Below are positions 50,997 through 57,781 of a stretch of DNA of 64,000 nt, piece after piece. Below the pieces are notes generated by a model. That model was not told the origin of the DNA, ran no database searches, and saw only the letters and a list, made by a program, of their open reading frames with translations. Location of the stretch: contig NZ_CP022187.1 of NCBI RefSeq assembly GCF_003111645.1, positions 868,001-932,000 of the forward strand. The letters run 5' to 3'. Position 1 is the stretch's first letter. The number at the start of each line of letters is the position of its first letter. The translations under genes and the position numbers were made by a program. The DNA is from Parazoarcus communis (GTDB lineage: Bacteria > Pseudomonadota > Gammaproteobacteria > Burkholderiales > Rhodocyclaceae).

Positions 50997-51101
50997 GGCA
51001 TGCCGCTGTGATTCGATGTTGCCTGCAAGCGCGCCGCGTGGCTGTTTTCGCAGCGAACAGGACTGTGCAGCATGACGTGACTATGCGAGAATCCGCGGCT
51101 C

Positions 51102-51186
51102 GCCCGGATGGTGAAATTGGTATACACAGCAGACTTAAAATCTGCCGCCGCATGGCTTACGGGTTCAAGTCCCGTTCCGGGCACCA
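51102..51186 (+). tRNA. tRNA-Leu(TAA)
   Basis: 85 nt with encoded CCA and a long variable arm as expected for Leu. Acceptor GCCCGGA pairs with TCCGGGC (TTCCGGGCACCA end), anticodon loop ACTTAAAAT holds TAA. E. coli leuZ has the same anticodon and follows glyW-cysT. Confidence 0.97.
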
Positions 51187-51245
51187 GACGAGACATCATG
51201 TCGCGCACACCGCGCCAAGGCGCCCCCGCCCACGAGCCGCGCGTG

Positions 51246-51506
51246 TCAGCGGCCCGCCTCGGGCAGAACGATATTGACTTCCAGCACCTCGTAGTTGTCC
51301 TGCTTTTCGAGTTGAACCTTGATGTCGTCTGGATTGACCGAAACGTACTTCGAGATCACCTCGATCAGCTCACGCTGGAGAGCCGGCATGAAGTCGGGTT
51401 GCGCGGGTCCGCCGTTGCGCTCGTGAGCAATCAGCAGTGACAGCCGGTTCTTTGCAATCTCGGCTGTTTTCTTCTTTTCGCCAAACAGGCGGGCAAGCAG
51501 AGACAT
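51246..51506 (-). CDS. minE: Cell division topological specificity factor MinE
   Basis: 86 residues. N-terminal amphipathic membrane-targeting helix ([20 protein letters not shown]) and anti-MinCD segment [11 protein letters not shown] are followed by the topological-specificity domain. MinE drives pole-to-pole oscillation of MinCD. It starts one base after the minD stop. Confidence 0.95.
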
Positions 51507-51507
51507 A

Positions 51508-52320
51508 TCACTTGCCTCCGAAAAGGCGCTTCATCAGCCCCGGTTTCTCGTAGTTTACGAAACGCAGCTCACGGTTTTCACCGAGGAAGCGCGCGACCAC
51601 ATCGGAATAGGCCTCGGCAACGTCCGAACCCTTGAGGTGAATGGCGGGTGTGCCCTGGTTGGAAGCGTGAAGCACCGACTCCGACTCGGGAATGACACCG
51701 ATCAGCGGCACGCGCAGCAACTCCTGCACATCCTTGTACGACAGCATTTCGCCGTCTTCGACGCGCTTGGCAGAGTAACGCGTGACCAGCAGGTGTTCCT
51801 TGACCGGCTCGCCACCTTCGCGGGCACGCTTCGACTTCGACTGCAGGATGCCGAGGATGCGGTCCGAGTCGCGAACCGAGGACACTTCCGGGTTGGTGGT
51901 GACGATCGCTTCGTCGGCAAAGGTGAGGGCCATCACGGCACCACGCTCGATACCGGCAGGCGAATCGCAGACCACATAGTCGAAGCCCATGTGCTCAAGA
52001 TCATGCAGCACCTTCTCGACGCCTTCTTCCGTCAGCGCATCCTTGTCGCGCGTCTGGGAAGCGGGAAGGATGAAGAGGTTCTCGCAGTGGCGGTCCTTGA
52101 TCAGCGCCTGGTTCAGCTTGGCCTCGCCATTGACCACGTTCACGAGGTCATACACGACACGGCGCTCGCACCCCATGATGAGGTCGAGGTTGCGCAGACC
52201 GACGTCGAAGTCGATCACGGCCGTCTTGAAGCCGCGCAGGGCCAGTCCTGACGAGAATGCAGCGCTGGTGGTGGTTTTACCTACGCCGCCCTTGCCAGAA
52301 GTAATGACGATGACTTTCAC
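51508..52320 (-). CDS. minD: Septum site-determining protein MinD
   Basis: 270 residues, a deviant-Walker ATPase: [10 protein letters not shown] (~9-18) with the signature Lys, [10 protein letters not shown] switch and a C-terminal amphipathic membrane-targeting helix ([14 protein letters not shown]). MinD recruits MinC to the membrane and is released by MinE. It lies between minC (29 bp) and minE (1 bp). Confidence 0.97.
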
Positions 52321-52349
52321 GTTTTCCCCTTGAATGTATGTATGCCGCG

Positions 52350-53132
52350 TCAGTCGAGCTGCTGCGGTTCGATTTCTATGGTCTGTGCATTCCCAGCGTC
52401 GTTCAGTCGCACCATGGCACCACGCCCGGCAATTGCCTCAGGGATGCCTTTTTCGAAGGTGCGATAAACGCCGGCGATGGAAACCAGCTCCGGACCGAAA
52501 TTGGTTGCAATGATGCGCGCCTTGCTGTTTCCCTGCGCACCAGCCAGCGCTCGGCCACGAAGCGGGCCGAAGCAGTGAATGCTGCCGTCGGCGATGACCT
52601 CGGCGCCGTTACTCATGCCTGCCAGCAATACCAGGTCGCCACCACGTGCATACACCTGCTGTCCGGAGCGCAGCGGACGCTCGACGAACAGTGTGTTGGG
52701 AAGGGACGCCGGAGCTGAAGGGGCCGCGGGTTGCGGCGGAGCCTCCGCCTTTGGAGCGGGTGCTGGCGGCGGTGTGCGGGATGTTTCGCTTGCCGGCCGT
52801 TCGCGCAGTTCGAGGTTGTCAAGTATGGCCAGTCCGGCCTGACGCGCAGCGGCCGAGAGCTCTGCGGGCAGGTTGCGTACGCCGATCGGTTGCAGCTGAT
52901 AGCGTCGGAGCAGGGACAGCAGCCCGGCCCAGTCTACACGTCCAGGCGCCTTGGTGATGCCGGAGAAATCGAGAATGGCGGCTTCGCCATTGAAGAAGTC
53001 CGGCATGCCGCCGAGCATCTTGTGCAGCGAGTCGGCCAGGCCGACGGGTTCGGTATCGCGCAGGACGGCAATGGTTGCGCCGAGTGTCGTATTGCGAAAC
53101 TCGATGGAGCGGTTGGGCGCGGACGTGGTCAT
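52350..53132 (-). CDS. minC: Septum site-determining protein MinC
   Basis: 260 residues. N-terminal FtsZ-inhibiting domain (~5-110), a Pro/Ala-rich linker (~118-150, e.g. PPPAPAPKAEAPPQP) and the C-terminal beta-helix domain that binds MinD (~155-255, ARGGDLVLLAGMSNGAEVIADG cut to its first part in most families). It is the first gene of minCDE. Two GTAAACTC repeats lie just upstream (53138-53166). Confidence 0.93.
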   Translation of the reverse strand: MTTSAPNRSIEFRNTTLGATIAVLRDTEPVGLADSLHKMLGGMPDFFNGEAAILDFSGITKAPGRVDWAGLLSLLRRYQLQPIGVRNLPAELSAAARQAGLAILDNLELRERPASETSRTPPPAPAPKAEAPPQPAAPSAPASLPNTLFVERPLRSGQQVYARGGDLVLLAGMSNGAEVIADGSIHCFGPLRGRALAGAQGNSKARIIATNFGPELVSIAGVYRTFEKGIPEAIAGRGAMVRLNDAGNAQTIEIEPQQLD

Positions 53133-53137
53133 GTGCA

Positions 53138-53166
53138 GAGTTTACCGTTTAATCGCGCGAGTTTAC
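53138..53166 (-). repeat. GTAAACTC direct repeats upstream of minC
   Basis: On the minus strand, GTAAACTC occurs at 53166-53159 and 53145-53138, exactly 21 bp apart, two helical turns. The proximal copy lies five bases before the minC start codon, and TAAACT could double as a -10 element. This may be a protein-binding site. Confidence 0.5.
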
Positions 53167-53224
53167 TGAGGGTCGGTGAATACGGCAAGAATGTGACGGG
53201 CATCGTTGTCACGCCGGCCGCGTT

Positions 53225-54085
53225 TCAGTGCAGGGTCGGGGGCTGAAACAGCGTATCGATGTCGTCTTCATCGAAACGGTAGGTGTGATTCGACAGTTCG
53301 TCATGGACCAGCACCTCGCCCTGTTCGGCAAGTACCGCGCGCACTTCAGCCTCGCCGAGCCCCTGCAGCATGGTTGCGATCTTTTCCGGCTCGGGGGGCC
53401 AGATATGGGTAACAGCCCGCGGCGGGTAGATTCTTACGTCTTCTTCGGCAAAAAGGCGGCCAAGCAGCACTTCCGGCGACAGGGTGAGCAGTTCGTCGGG
53501 GCGTACGGTCTGCGCAAGCTGCATGATGCGCGACCAGCCGTCCTCGTCCTTTGCATCTGCGCCGGGCAGGCGCTGCACGAACAGCGCGGCGCTGGCGGAG
53601 GGATCACAGGCCAGCCAGAGACCCGCAGGCTGTTGCTCGGACTGTTCGAGGTAATGGGAGAACACGCTCGCGATGCTGTCGCCTTCCAGCGGCACCAGAC
53701 TCTGATAGGGCTGGTCCATGCCCTGGATGTCGAGCGACAGTTGCAGGCGACCATCACCGACAATCTCGCCAAGCGTATCGCCGGTAATTTCGCCTTCCGA
53801 TTTCGCGTAACCACGCAGGTTCATTTCGGCGTTGCAATCGACCACGAGCAGCCTGAGCGGACCATGACCCTGCACCTGAAACGTCAGCCGTCCGGTTTGC
53901 TTGAGGTTTCCGGTGATGATGGCCGATACCGCACTCATCTCGCCGAGCAGGCGGCTGACAGGCGCCGGATAGTGACGCCCGACCTGCATGGCTTTCCAGA
54001 CGTCGTCAAGACGGACGACCGCACCGCGGATGTCGAGTTTTTCCAGCAGAAAACGCTGTACGTAGCTTGAGGGCAGGGTGCTCAT
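53225..54085 (-). CDS. hslO: Hsp33 family chaperone lacking the redox-switch cysteines
   Basis: 286 residues with the whole Hsp33 fold: N-terminal domain [20 protein letters not shown] and [13 protein letters not shown], middle linker, and C-terminal segment [25 protein letters not shown] that aligns with the zinc domain. The four conserved zinc ligands are gone: the CxC position reads Trp229-Pro-Pro231 and the CxxC position reads His261-Asp-Glu-Leu264. Only Cys84 and Cys160 remain. In E. coli the oxidised zinc site triggers chaperone activity. This protein therefore cannot use that switch. It overlaps the ArsC-like gene by 4 bp. Confidence 0.9.
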
Positions 54086-54459
54086 TGATCTTCAGGCTCT
54101 GAGGGTTTGATGAAGCTTGCAAAGAGTTGGGGGTCGAACCCCACCAGCAGGTGACCGGATGCCGTTTCGACCACGGGCCGCTTGATCAGGCTCGGGTTCT
54201 CCAGCATCAGCTGGACCGCAGCGCTCTGGGTGTCGATCGCCTGCTGCTCGGGCGACAGCTTGCGCCAGGTCGTGCCGCGGGTGTTGATCAGCGTCTTCCA
54301 GCCCAGCGCCTTGCTCCAGTCATGCAGCTTGCCGGACGTGATCCCGTCCTTGCGATAGTCATGAAAGCGATATGCTGCGCCGCGCTCGGTAAGCCAGGCG
54401 ATGCTCTTCTTCATGGTGTCGCAGTTCTTGATGCCGTAGATCACCGTTACCTTGTCCAT
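54082..54459 (-). CDS. ArsC/Spx-like protein (YffB family)
   Basis: 125 residues of the arsenate-reductase fold. It has a single Cys13 in [10 protein letters not shown], RxH-less loop RGTTWRKLS and the C-terminal [16 protein letters not shown] typical of YffB-type proteins. These are usually not arsenate reductases; a thiol-related role is supposed. It overlaps hslO by 4 bp, forming a small operon. Confidence 0.88.
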
Positions 54460-54489
54460 TTCGTGCTCTCCAACGCGGTCAGGATCCGC

Positions 54490-56829
54490 TCACTTCTTGC
54501 GGGCGCGTGCAAAGGCATCGGCAAACGCATTATTGCCGGCGCTGCGCTCAGCTTGCTTGGGGCGTGCTTCCTGCGGGCGCGCCTGGCGTTGCGGGTTGCC
54601 GCGGGGCCCCTGGGGGCGCTCGGGCCGACCGCTGCCTGCATCGCCGCGCGGTGGCTGAACTTCGTCGGCAAGGCGCATGGTCAGCGCAATCCGCTTGCGG
54701 ACAACATCGACCTCGAGCACCTTCACTTTCACCACCTGACCCGCCTTGACCACCGAGTGCGGATCCTTGACGAAGGTGTTCGACAGCGCCGAGATGTGCA
54801 CCAGTCCGTCCTGATGCACACCGATATCGACGAAAGCGCCAAAGTTCGTGACATTGGTCACCACGCCTTCGAGCAGCATGCCGGGCTGCAGATCCTTCAG
54901 CGTTTCGATGCCATCGCGGAAGGTGGCTGTGCGGAACTCGGGGCGCGGGTCGCGGCCGGGTTTCTCGAGCTCGGCAAGGATGTCCTGTACGGTCGGAAGG
55001 CCAAAGCGGTCGTCGGTGAAGTCGGCGGGTTTGAGGCTCTTCAGCATGCTGCCGTTGCCCATCAGCTCGCGAACGCTTTTCTGGACGCGCGCCAGAATGC
55101 GCTCGACCACCGGGTAGGCTTCCGGGTGCACCGAGGACGCATCGAGTGGATTGTCACCGGTCTGGATGCGCAGAAATCCGGCGGCCTGCTCGAAGGTCTT
55201 GGGGCCGAGTCGCGGCACGTCCTTCAGTGCGCTGCGACTGCGGAAGGGGCCGTTGGCGTCACGGTATTCAACGATATTGCCCGCAAGCGTCGCGTTGAGA
55301 CCGGAGATCCGGGCCAGCAGCGGGGCCGATGCGGTGTTGACGTCCACCCCGACGGCATTCACGCAATCTTCGACGACAGCGTCCAGGCTCTTGGCGAGCT
55401 TGCCCTGGTTGAGGTCGTGCTGATATTGACCAACCCCGATCGACTTCGGATCGATCTTCACCAGTTCGGCCAGCGGATCCTGCAGGCGACGCGCAATCGA
55501 CACCGCACCACGCAGGCTGACATCGACATCGGGAAACTCACGTGCGGCCAGTTCCGACGCCGAATACACCGACGCGCCAGCCTCAGAGACCATGACCTTG
55601 GTGAGCTTGAACTCGGGGTGGCGCTGCATCAGTTCCGCCGCCAGCGCGTCGGTCTCGCGTGAAGCGGTACCGTTGCCAATGGCGATCAGTTCGACCGCGT
55701 GCTTCTTCGCCAGCATCGCAAGGGCAGCGAGCGAGGACTCGCGGTCACGACGCGGCTCGAAGGGGTAGATGGTTGCGGTGTCGACGAGCTTGCCGGTGGC
55801 ATCGACAACGGCGACCTTCACCCCGGTCCGGATGCCGGGGTCGAGTCCCATCGTGGTCCGGCTGCCGGCCGGTGCGGCGAGCAGGAGATCCTTGAGGTTG
55901 CGGGCAAAGACGCGGGTTGCTTCCTCTTCGGCGCGTTCGCGCAGCTCGCTCATGAGTTCGAGTTCGAGATGGAGCGACACCTTCACGCTCCACGTCCAGC
56001 GTACCGTGTCCGCAAGCCAGCGATCCGCCGGCCGGCCCTGATTGCGGATGCCGAAGCGCACCGCGATGCGGCCTTCGCAGGGGTGAGGCGCATCGGGATC
56101 GGGGCGCTCAACCTCCAGACCGAGGCGAAGCACGCCCTCATTGCGGCCGCGCAGCAGCGCGAGCGCCCGGTGCGAGGGCATGTTTGCGATCGGCTCCTGA
56201 AAGTCGAACCAGTCGCGAAACTTCGCACCTTCGGTTTCCTTGCCCTCAATCACGCTGGAGCGGACGAGTCCGTAATCGTGCAGATAGTTGCGCAGTTCGC
56301 CCAGCAGCGTCGCGTCCTCGGCGAACTGCTCCATCAGGATCTGGCGCGCACCATCCAGTACGGACTTTGCATCCTCGAAGCCGGCTTCCGGGTTCAGATA
56401 GCGGGCCGCCTCGACCTCAGGCGTAAGTGTCGGGTCGGCAAGCAGCGCCTCGGCGAGCGGCGCAATGCCGGCTTCGCGCGCAATCTGGGCCTTGGTGCGG
56501 CGCTTCGGCTTGAAGGGAAGGTAGAGATCTTCCAGGCGTTGCTTGGTATCGGCGTTTTCAAGCTCGGCGCGCAGTGCGGGGGTGAGCTTGCCTTGTTCGT
56601 CGACCGACGCGATGACGGTGGATCGGCGGTCTTCGAGTTCGCGCAAATACCCCAGCCGCTCTTCCAGCAATCGCAACTGGGTGTCGTCCAGGCCGCCGGT
56701 GACTTCCTTGCGGTACCGCGAGATGAAGGGCACGGTCGCGCCTTCATCAAGCAGTTTCACGGCAGAGAAGACCTGTCTGGCGGGAACGCCGAGTTCATCG
56801 GCAATACGGTGTTCGATGGGGGGGAGCAT
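54490..56829 (-). CDS. S1 RNA-binding protein Tex
   Basis: 779 residues. Tex N-terminal helical domain (~1-200), YqgF/RNase H-like domain ([16 protein letters not shown], ~325-450), helix-hairpin-helix pair (~500-570, [15 protein letters not shown] and [17 protein letters not shown]) and S1 domain (~645-720, [20 protein letters not shown]). The tail (~725-779) is Pro/Gly/Arg-rich. The ATG at 56829 gives the expected start [14 protein letters not shown]; an upstream TTG at 56859 is less likely. Tex affects transcription in Bordetella and other bacteria. Confidence 0.93.
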
Positions 56830-56935
56830 GGCAGGGTCACCGTGGCGAGCACGGCGCAATGGTTCTCATGAAGGGCGCGATGGTGCAGCAAGCGCCGCTG
56901 CGGGACAAGGGGGCGACGACAATCGCCCCTTGCCC

Positions 56936-57781
56936 TCAGAGCGCGACCAGCGTCTGCCTGCCCCACCACTGCTGGTGCGGCGGAAGCTCGACCGCCTGAT
57001 CGGCAACCGCCGCTTCGGTGCATAACATGCGGCGAAAACCGCTGTTGGGCATGTCGGCGAGTGCGGCGCAACGTGTCTCCCACGGGTTCCAGATCACAAC
57101 ATCCGGAAAACCCTCGGTATTCACGCCGAGACTGCGGCGGTGGTCACGCACGAGAAGCGGACGGGTCACCTTGCAGTAGATGCGGTCGACTTCCGCGTCG
57201 ACCATGATCCGCTCACCGCTTTCACGACGGACGACGTTGCCCGCAGCCGTATCGCGATAGCTGAAGCCGTAAAGCCCCTCGAGTGCGATCTCCTCGACTT
57301 CGCTGACGCGAAGATAGGTATGGAGCGCGCCGGTAAACGAAAACGCCTCGTCGCCGGTGTTCTCGACCGAGAGTTCGAGGTCTAGCCGGTTGTCTTCCAC
57401 TGCTACCGTCAGTTCAAGGGCGAAGGCGTGCGGCCAGATGGCGCGTGTTTCTTCATCGTCGACGATACGCAGCACCGCAATGGCGAAATCCTCGCCGGTG
57501 CGCTGCTCGACGACGCTCCACACCCTGGTGCGCACGAATCCGTGCTTCGGAAGCGTGCCCTGGTCGGCAAACTGCGGAAAGCAGACCGGTACGCCACCCC
57601 GAATCGGCACACTGCCGTCAAAGACCGCCTGCTCGCTGAGATAGAGCCACTCCTTGCCGCCACGTGGCGTCCACGACAGCACCTGCCCACCCAGCAGGCT
57701 CACCACCACCCGCGCGCCCGAAACGTCCATCGCCAGGGCAGCAAGGCCCTGAAACTCCACCTGTTCGATCGTTGCACTCAT
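56936..57781 (-). CDS. D-hexose-6-phosphate mutarotase-like protein (aldose 1-epimerase fold)
   Basis: 281 residues, galactose-mutarotase fold of the YeaD type, thought to interconvert anomers of hexose 6-phosphates. GGVPVCFPQF, PKHGFVRT (with His and Arg of the active site), FTGALHTYLRV (second His) and VVIWNPWE (Glu) are visible. It starts five bases before the acyl-CoA synthetase gene ends, so it is probably cotranscribed with it. Confidence 0.87.
   Translation of the reverse strand: MSATIEQVEFQGLAALAMDVSGARVVVSLLGGQVLSWTPRGGKEWLYLSEQAVFDGSVPIRGGVPVCFPQFADQGTLPKHGFVRTRVWSVVEQRTGEDFAIAVLRIVDDEETRAIWPHAFALELTVAVEDNRLDLELSVENTGDEAFSFTGALHTYLRVSEVEEIALEGLYGFSYRDTAAGNVVRRESGERIMVDAEVDRIYCKVTRPLLVRDHRRSLGVNTEGFPDVVIWNPWETRCAALADMPNSGFRRMLCTEAAVADQAVELPPHQQWWGRQTLVAL

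Follow-up and report, generated by a model that had tools for sequence, protein, structure and literature searches.

We report an Hsp33 homologue, encoded in the window (the whole stretch of DNA that was analysed, 64,000 nucleotides), in which all four cysteines of the CxC/CxxC zinc centre have been replaced. We favour, with a probability of roughly one half, the reading that this protein is a zinc-free, thiol-blind Hsp33 holdase, gated by unfolding, whose clade lost the zinc centre stepwise while the rest of the protein was kept; the folding without zinc and the gating are the parts of this reading that we infer.

In E. coli Hsp33, according to the available portions of PMC10598452 and PMC4516975, oxidation of the four cysteines leads to release of the zinc, the domain and linker unfold and the client site is bared; with the cysteines gone, a trigger of this type cannot act. 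The window protein resembles the Hsp33 proteins (HslO, PF01430) of E. coli, B. subtilis and T. maritima in its homology along the whole chain, its linker motifs and its predicted closed fold, but it lacks their zinc centre and hence any disulfide switch of the type known from them. A survey of 1579 Hsp33 homologues, summarised in section 5 of PMC7423844, describes the four cysteines as fully conserved, with the second missing in fewer than ten; the cysteine states reported here do not fit full conservation of all four as a general rule. No paper on a natural bacterial Hsp33 without cysteines was found, by title or start of abstract, among the open-licence PMC matches listed, and the available part of PMC10490939 names no cysteine loss.

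The hslO-like gene and its missing cysteines

The gene is an intact reading frame on the minus strand; the plus-strand frame over the same interval is a separate, unrelated reading. The gene, the parts of its product and its neighbours are as follows.

53225..54085, minus strand: hslO-like gene for a cysteine-free Hsp33 homologue of 286 amino acids (PF01430, 220.4 bits, 4e-65; single copy)
53576..54064, minus strand: N-terminal core, residues 8-170 (domain limits set in this analysis)
53414..53575, minus strand: linker, residues 171-224, with T193xxxxE198 and R210-L-F212 kept (motifs named in section 5 of PMC7423844)
53246..53413, minus strand: C-terminal former redox-switch domain, residues 225-280, predicted to fold without zinc (10-residue pLDDT means of 90-95 over 221-280)
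54082..54459, minus strand: ArsC/YffB-like gene just upstream (NF008107, 139.3 bits, cut-off 121)
54490..56859, minus strand: tex, upstream, same direction
52350..53132, minus strand: minC, downstream, same direction

The homology to Hsp33 over the whole length, which a sequence-only reading of this DNA had claimed, holds: the match to PF01430 spans residues 8-272 and its score lies far above the curated cut-off of 21.4. The protein scores 189.3 bits against the HslO equivalog model NF001033, below its cut-off of 244. Its profile score, its predicted three-part fold (core, linker and C-terminal domain) and its linker motifs TxxxxE and RL(Y/F) are those of the Hsp33 family, and the zinc-ligand cysteines, CxC and CxxC, that characterise the redox-regulated Hsp33 proteins are absent. 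A profile search of the whole genome (4,572,081 bases in one contig) gave no second HSP33 match, and the second, cysteine-bearing copy for which that reading had proposed a search is thus not found in these 4.57 Mb.

The positions once occupied by the cysteines, numbered C1 to C4, and the other residues discussed below were placed by alignment.

53399..53401, minus strand: Trp229 codon, in the place of the first Cys of CxC (C1)
53393..53395, minus strand: Pro231 codon, in the place of the second Cys of CxC (C2)
53300..53302, minus strand: Asp262 codon, in the place of the first Cys of CxxC (C3)
53291..53293, minus strand: Ser265 codon, in the place of the second Cys of CxxC (C4)
53834..53836, minus strand: Cys84 codon, a remaining cysteine that is not specific to the cysteine-free form
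53606..53608, minus strand: Cys160 codon, a remaining cysteine
53405..53407, minus strand: His227 codon, conserved in 104/112 cysteine-free rows of the alignment
53285..53287, minus strand: His267 codon, conserved in 101/112 cysteine-free rows

The absence of all four switch cysteines, as first read from the sequence, stands, as does the assignment of Trp229 and Pro231; the replacement of CxxC by His261 and Leu264 came from a misalignment by one residue, the columns in question being those of Asp262 and Ser265. Cys84 and Cys160 are indeed the sole cysteines of the protein, and the cysteines were, as had been argued, substituted rather than lost by truncation. All 112 cysteine-free rows extend to residue 280. 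An error of sequencing or assembly is excluded in practice because 111 further aligned rows, from many genomes, lack all four cysteines as well. The codons at the lost positions fit single-base changes, Trp being TGG in 85 of 114 (a count that includes the window gene three times) and Ser being mostly TCG or TCC.

Distribution, order of loss and neighbouring genes

The alignment comprised 291 loci and the window protein which, after removal of two loci representing the window gene itself, left 290 rows: 82 with all four cysteines (CCCC), 2 scored CxCC, 88 CxxC, 6 Cxxx and 112 xxxx, with none in which C4 was kept after the loss of C1. The two CxCC rows read C-V-G-C and C-F-G-C and thus hold four cysteines at a different spacing, which gives 84 four-cysteine rows. 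Some genomes occur in both collections, and the distinct sequences over residues 8-280 number 82, 2, 83, 6 and 104, in the same order, the last including the window's own. Row counts are not frequencies, since the sampling favoured close relatives of the window protein: the best 80 among 495 relatives confirmed for the query alignment supply 80 of the rows (77 cysteine-free and 3 two-cysteine).

Named close relatives (Azoarcus, Thauera, Aromatoleum, Zoogloea, Denitromonas, Accumulibacter and others) suggest that the window's family, coded f1, is Rhodocyclaceae in the broad sense. Of the 150 genomes searched in this family, 134 had an HSP33 match, and some of the 16 without one are incomplete. 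Among 98 f1 genomes from 64 genera, with one sequence taken from each, 58 encode a two-cysteine, 34 a cysteine-free and 6 a one-cysteine protein; by genus, 38 hold two-cysteine forms only, 22 cysteine-free only, 2 one-cysteine only and 2 are mixed. The loss, whose spread among Rhodocyclales had been raised as a point to check, is family-wide, lineage-specific and stepwise; none of these 98 sequences keeps all four cysteines. Two-cysteine forms also occur in families f178, f183, f189, f210, f55 and f110, while 71 other sampled families gave CCCC rows only. At the level of the order, 28 further genomes from 12 families with weaker matches all have four cysteines by pattern. At the level of the class, 58 of the 120 genomes with an HSP33 match were examined (the top 30 and a further 28, chiefly ones with low scores), and in the phylum search, in which 184 of 249 genomes had a match, the further Pseudomonadota loci have four cysteines by pattern in 49 of 49 cases (29 new among the 30 best, and 20 mostly low-scoring).

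The two-cysteine proteins (for example the Accumulibacter and Desulfobacillus records L139 and L137) resemble the window protein in the loss of C2 and C3, in an Asp or Asn at C3, in a Pro after C1 (75 of 88 rows) and in their predicted fold; unlike it they keep C1 and C4, which could pair. No description of this form was found in the open-licence papers covered.

Several records stand apart. Two-cysteine proteins with Asp or Asn at the third place lie outside the window's family in L146-L154, L164, L169, L171, L212-L214, L220, L250, L251 and L288, families f55 and f110 being also outside its order; these perhaps carry a zinc-free C1-C4 disulfide switch, or were acquired by transfer. In f210 one genome (G600; L298 / L224) has a four-cysteine protein and the other 8 sampled have two-cysteine proteins, so that either replacement by transfer or an early branch may be involved. 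L120, a record titled Nitrosomonas mobilis, has a cysteine-free Hsp33 that by eye is like the Denitromonas rows, whether by transfer or by contamination of the assembly.

A tree of 147 rows, built with the cysteine columns left out, needs one change at C2, eight at C4 and six at C1, C3 sharing the state of C2 in these rows. On this tree the losses are ordered, C2 and C3 having gone once, then C4 and then C1, with the later steps taken several times; the direction is read as loss, and not gain, because the outgroup is four-cysteine. The main cysteine-free group holds 53 tree representatives (SH-aLRT 92), with W at C1 in 42, F in 10 and T in 1, and S at C4 in 49, G in 3 and A in 1. Smaller losses lie elsewhere, g60 reading C-A in 3/3 members and g62 having one two-cysteine and one cysteine-free member. 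A single clade for all cysteine-free rows is weakly rejected (AU p 0.032). Two long cysteine-free rows (L180 and L195) are placed outside the two-cysteine clade and several inner branches are poorly supported, so that the number of losses is approximate. The three genomes of genus g53 (L272, L273 and L201) show, respectively, C1 kept with Ala at C4, C1 kept with Ser at C4, and both lost (Phe and Ser); within this one genus the last two steps can be followed in present-day genomes.

The overlap of the ArsC/YffB-like gene with the start of the Hsp33 gene, pointed out earlier, amounts to 4 bases, and an operon with tex is suggested by the spacing of the genes. The ArsC-like protein of the window keeps the cysteine of its N-C-D motif. 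Such a gene lies directly upstream in 61 of 79 testable cysteine-free rows besides the window's own locus (63/81 with that locus, which is present twice) and in 36 of 56 testable two-cysteine rows (33 in f1 and 3 named records); the 20 two-cysteine rows without it comprise 18 in f178, f183, f189 and f210 and 2 in f1, and 32 rows of each form had too little flank and were left out. Upstream of four-cysteine Hsp33 it was found at 0/27 and 0/20 loci, with the window's protein as sole query, which distant copies could escape. The motif pattern with its cysteine is kept in the ArsC matches of 52/64 cysteine-free and 29/38 two-cysteine loci, the pattern not being found in the rest. A partnership of this neighbour with the cysteine-free form in particular is rejected, since it also accompanies the two-cysteine Hsp33 of relatives within the family; being common to these two forms and not found at four-cysteine loci, it seems to be a trait of the family that arose after the loss of C2 and C3. 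That the ArsC-like protein once reduced a C1-C4 disulfide is our guess. Fifteen cysteine-free records, mostly Azoarcus or Betaproteobacteria MAG, are without an upstream ArsC match (L084, L090, L092-L095, L097, L099, L101-L103, L108-L110 and L113).

No heat-shock promoter stood out, a loose sigma-32-like pattern occurring 16 times against 9.79 expected, a count reached in 6 of 100 shuffles and thus about that of chance; no sigma-70-like site was found in 51000-57500. The window's genome has one Hsp20 match and no match to PF14561 (TPR_20), which we take to be the TPR domain of CnoX.

The former zinc site, predicted fold and selection

Around the former zinc site, Pro230 is present in 103/112 cysteine-free and 75/88 two-cysteine rows, C3 has become Asp (108 rows) or Glu (4 rows) in the cysteine-free form, and Asn266 is found in 104/112. 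Position 227 is Phe in 79/82 four-cysteine rows, Tyr in 62/88 two-cysteine rows and His in the cysteine-free counts given above; His227 alone occurs in 11/88 two-cysteine and 0/82 four-cysteine rows, and together with His267 in 3/88 and 0/82. H227, D/E262 and H267 are combined in 94/112 cysteine-free rows, one or both histidines being missing from 18/112. The coupling of the two histidines to cysteine loss was put to independent-pairs tests with 3 usable pairs, the pattern coming mostly from one clade. The former zinc site is thus probably a zinc-free hairpin and a loop with an aromatic plug, and a His-Asp-His site (His227, Asp262 and His267) is a possibility.

An AlphaFold model of the window protein, made from 47 sequences of close relatives, has a pLDDT of 93.4 and a pTM of 0.88, with the C-terminal domain folded; AlphaFold has a tendency to return the closed fold already known, however stable the protein really is. 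The two-cysteine protein L139 gives the same predicted fold (pLDDT 93.1; TM 0.80 to 1vzy). In Foldseek comparisons the window model matches B. subtilis Hsp33 (1vzy) over the full chain with TM 0.84 and rmsd 2.8, T. maritima 1vq0 with TM 0.82, E. coli 3m7m with TM 0.73 over 231 residues (the top match by E-value), and 1hw7/1i7f, presumably domain-swapped dimers, with TM 0.56. The available part of PMC7423844 describes 1vzy as the reduced form. The model thus has a confidently predicted closed fold like that of zinc-bound Hsp33, in agreement with a closed form though no proof that it is stable without zinc.

Selection was estimated as dN/dS from pairs of 80-96% identity, each sequence being used once. 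For the cysteine-free form (32 pairs; 31 for the C-terminal domain) the values are 0.171 for the core, 0.157 for the linker and 0.122 for the C-terminal domain; the two-cysteine form (10 usable of 12 pairs) gives 0.133, 0.154 and 0.138, and a single one-cysteine pair 0.182, 0.310 and 0.035. Two four-cysteine pairs gave 0.059 for the core and 0.068 for the C-terminal domain, at a mean dS of 1.5-1.6, which is near saturation and allows no fair comparison; given these lower values, there may be some relaxation of selection in the cysteine-free form. Mean column entropy over the cysteine-free rows is 1.21 bits in the core, 1.16 in the linker and 1.33 in the C-terminal domain, which is slightly the most variable, and of the linker motifs T193, E198, L211 and F212 are present in 112/112 rows and R210 in 111/112. 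By these measures the core, linker and C-terminal domain of cysteine-free Hsp33 are all under purifying selection.

A zinc-free holdase and the alternatives

On the reading that we favour, the C-terminal domain would fold without zinc, held by ordinary packing, with a loop stiffened by Pro, the aromatic Trp/Phe229 and a hairpin of the form Asp-x-x-Ser-Asn in place of the zinc knuckle. The folded domain would dock on the linker and hide the client site as in reduced Hsp33, and unfolding conditions such as heat or denaturing stress, rather than disulfide chemistry, would release it, opening by heat being what we infer here. According to the available parts of PMC7423844 and PMC11664415, the HSP33 of Chlamydomonas is likewise without a zinc site and is listed as gaining holdase activity; it has lost one conserved Cys, as against four in the window protein, no longer binds zinc and has a heightened sensitivity to mild heat or oxidation (PMC7423844). 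The cysteine-less CuZn-SOD of Paenibacillus (PMC10432803, available in part), an unrelated protein, has similarly lost a cysteine feature supposed to be invariant.

A protein locked in the closed, reduced-like state might instead have EF-Tu as its target, which it would unfold and expose to Lon, and so brake translation through a folded switch domain with no need of oxidation. Only reduced E. coli Hsp33 binds EF-Tu, via the folded redox-switch domain, in the part of PMC8614738 available, and the C-terminal domain is here conserved and predicted to be folded; such a brake would explain why the cysteines were lost and the domain was not, and a domain locked closed for good would give the same conservation as that observed. 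The activity was, however, described for the E. coli protein, and conservation of the linker and core too suggests that the holdase function was kept. We regard this explanation as unlikely, though deserving of serious attention.

A bolder scheme, which seems to us improbable, is a stepwise rebuild from a four-cysteine zinc switch, by way of a zinc-free form with a single long-range C1-C4 thiol pair, to a thiol-free switch in which conserved His227, Asp262 and His267, with an aromatic plug (Trp/Phe229), sense some other signal, for example pH, metal or heat; if true, a single bacterial family would operate the same chaperone fold by three trigger chemistries. That the three residues form a new site which binds metal or senses pH, the domain still being a switch under another signal, is in itself quite doubtful: their joint conservation, and the rarity of the histidine pair in the other forms, speak for it, but the pattern lies mostly in one clade with few usable pairs, and the histidines are incomplete in the 18 rows noted above.

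It had also been proposed that a version without the cysteines could be controlled by another signal, which may be so, or be constitutively active, that is, with an unfolded zinc-free C-terminal domain and a client site that is always open. The title of the 1i7f entry refers to an Hsp33 domain with constitutive chaperone activity, and in the available part of PMC10598452 one linker-destabilising mutation renders Hsp33 constitutively active. An always-active form would, however, leave the C-terminal domain free to decay or be deleted, and this domain does not exceed the core in dN/dS, is kept to residue 280 in every cysteine-free row and is confidently folded in the closed model; the proposal is therefore disfavoured and we hold it to be quite improbable.

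We consider it very unlikely that these bacteria are in the process of losing Hsp33, the cysteine losses being decay under relaxed selection. C4 and C1 were lost repeatedly, several times in small genomes (1.4-2.4 Mb; g16, g22, g40, g48 and g62), and the 16 family genomes without a match point the same way, but dN/dS is low in all three domains and the main cysteine-free group is large and well supported, with an aromatic residue at C1 in 52 of its 53 representatives. A transfer of redox control to Cys84 and/or Cys160 has least to commend it, for Cys84, though present in 96/112 cysteine-free and 83/88 two-cysteine rows, is also found in 41/82 four-cysteine rows and is missing from 16/112 cysteine-free ones, and Cys160 is present in only 60/112.

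The four cysteines have been treated as the mark of Hsp33, and in one bacterial family none of 98 sequences has the full centre. The two-, one- and zero-cysteine forms, found side by side in that family, set the redox switch apart from the remainder of the protein, and these natural proteins make it possible to test what role Hsp33 has when oxidation plays no part and which factors other than thiols and zinc can hold or release its metastable linker. Having lost the cysteines stepwise while keeping Hsp33 itself, this family of environmental bacteria offers an experiment of nature on the function of the remaining parts of the chaperone.
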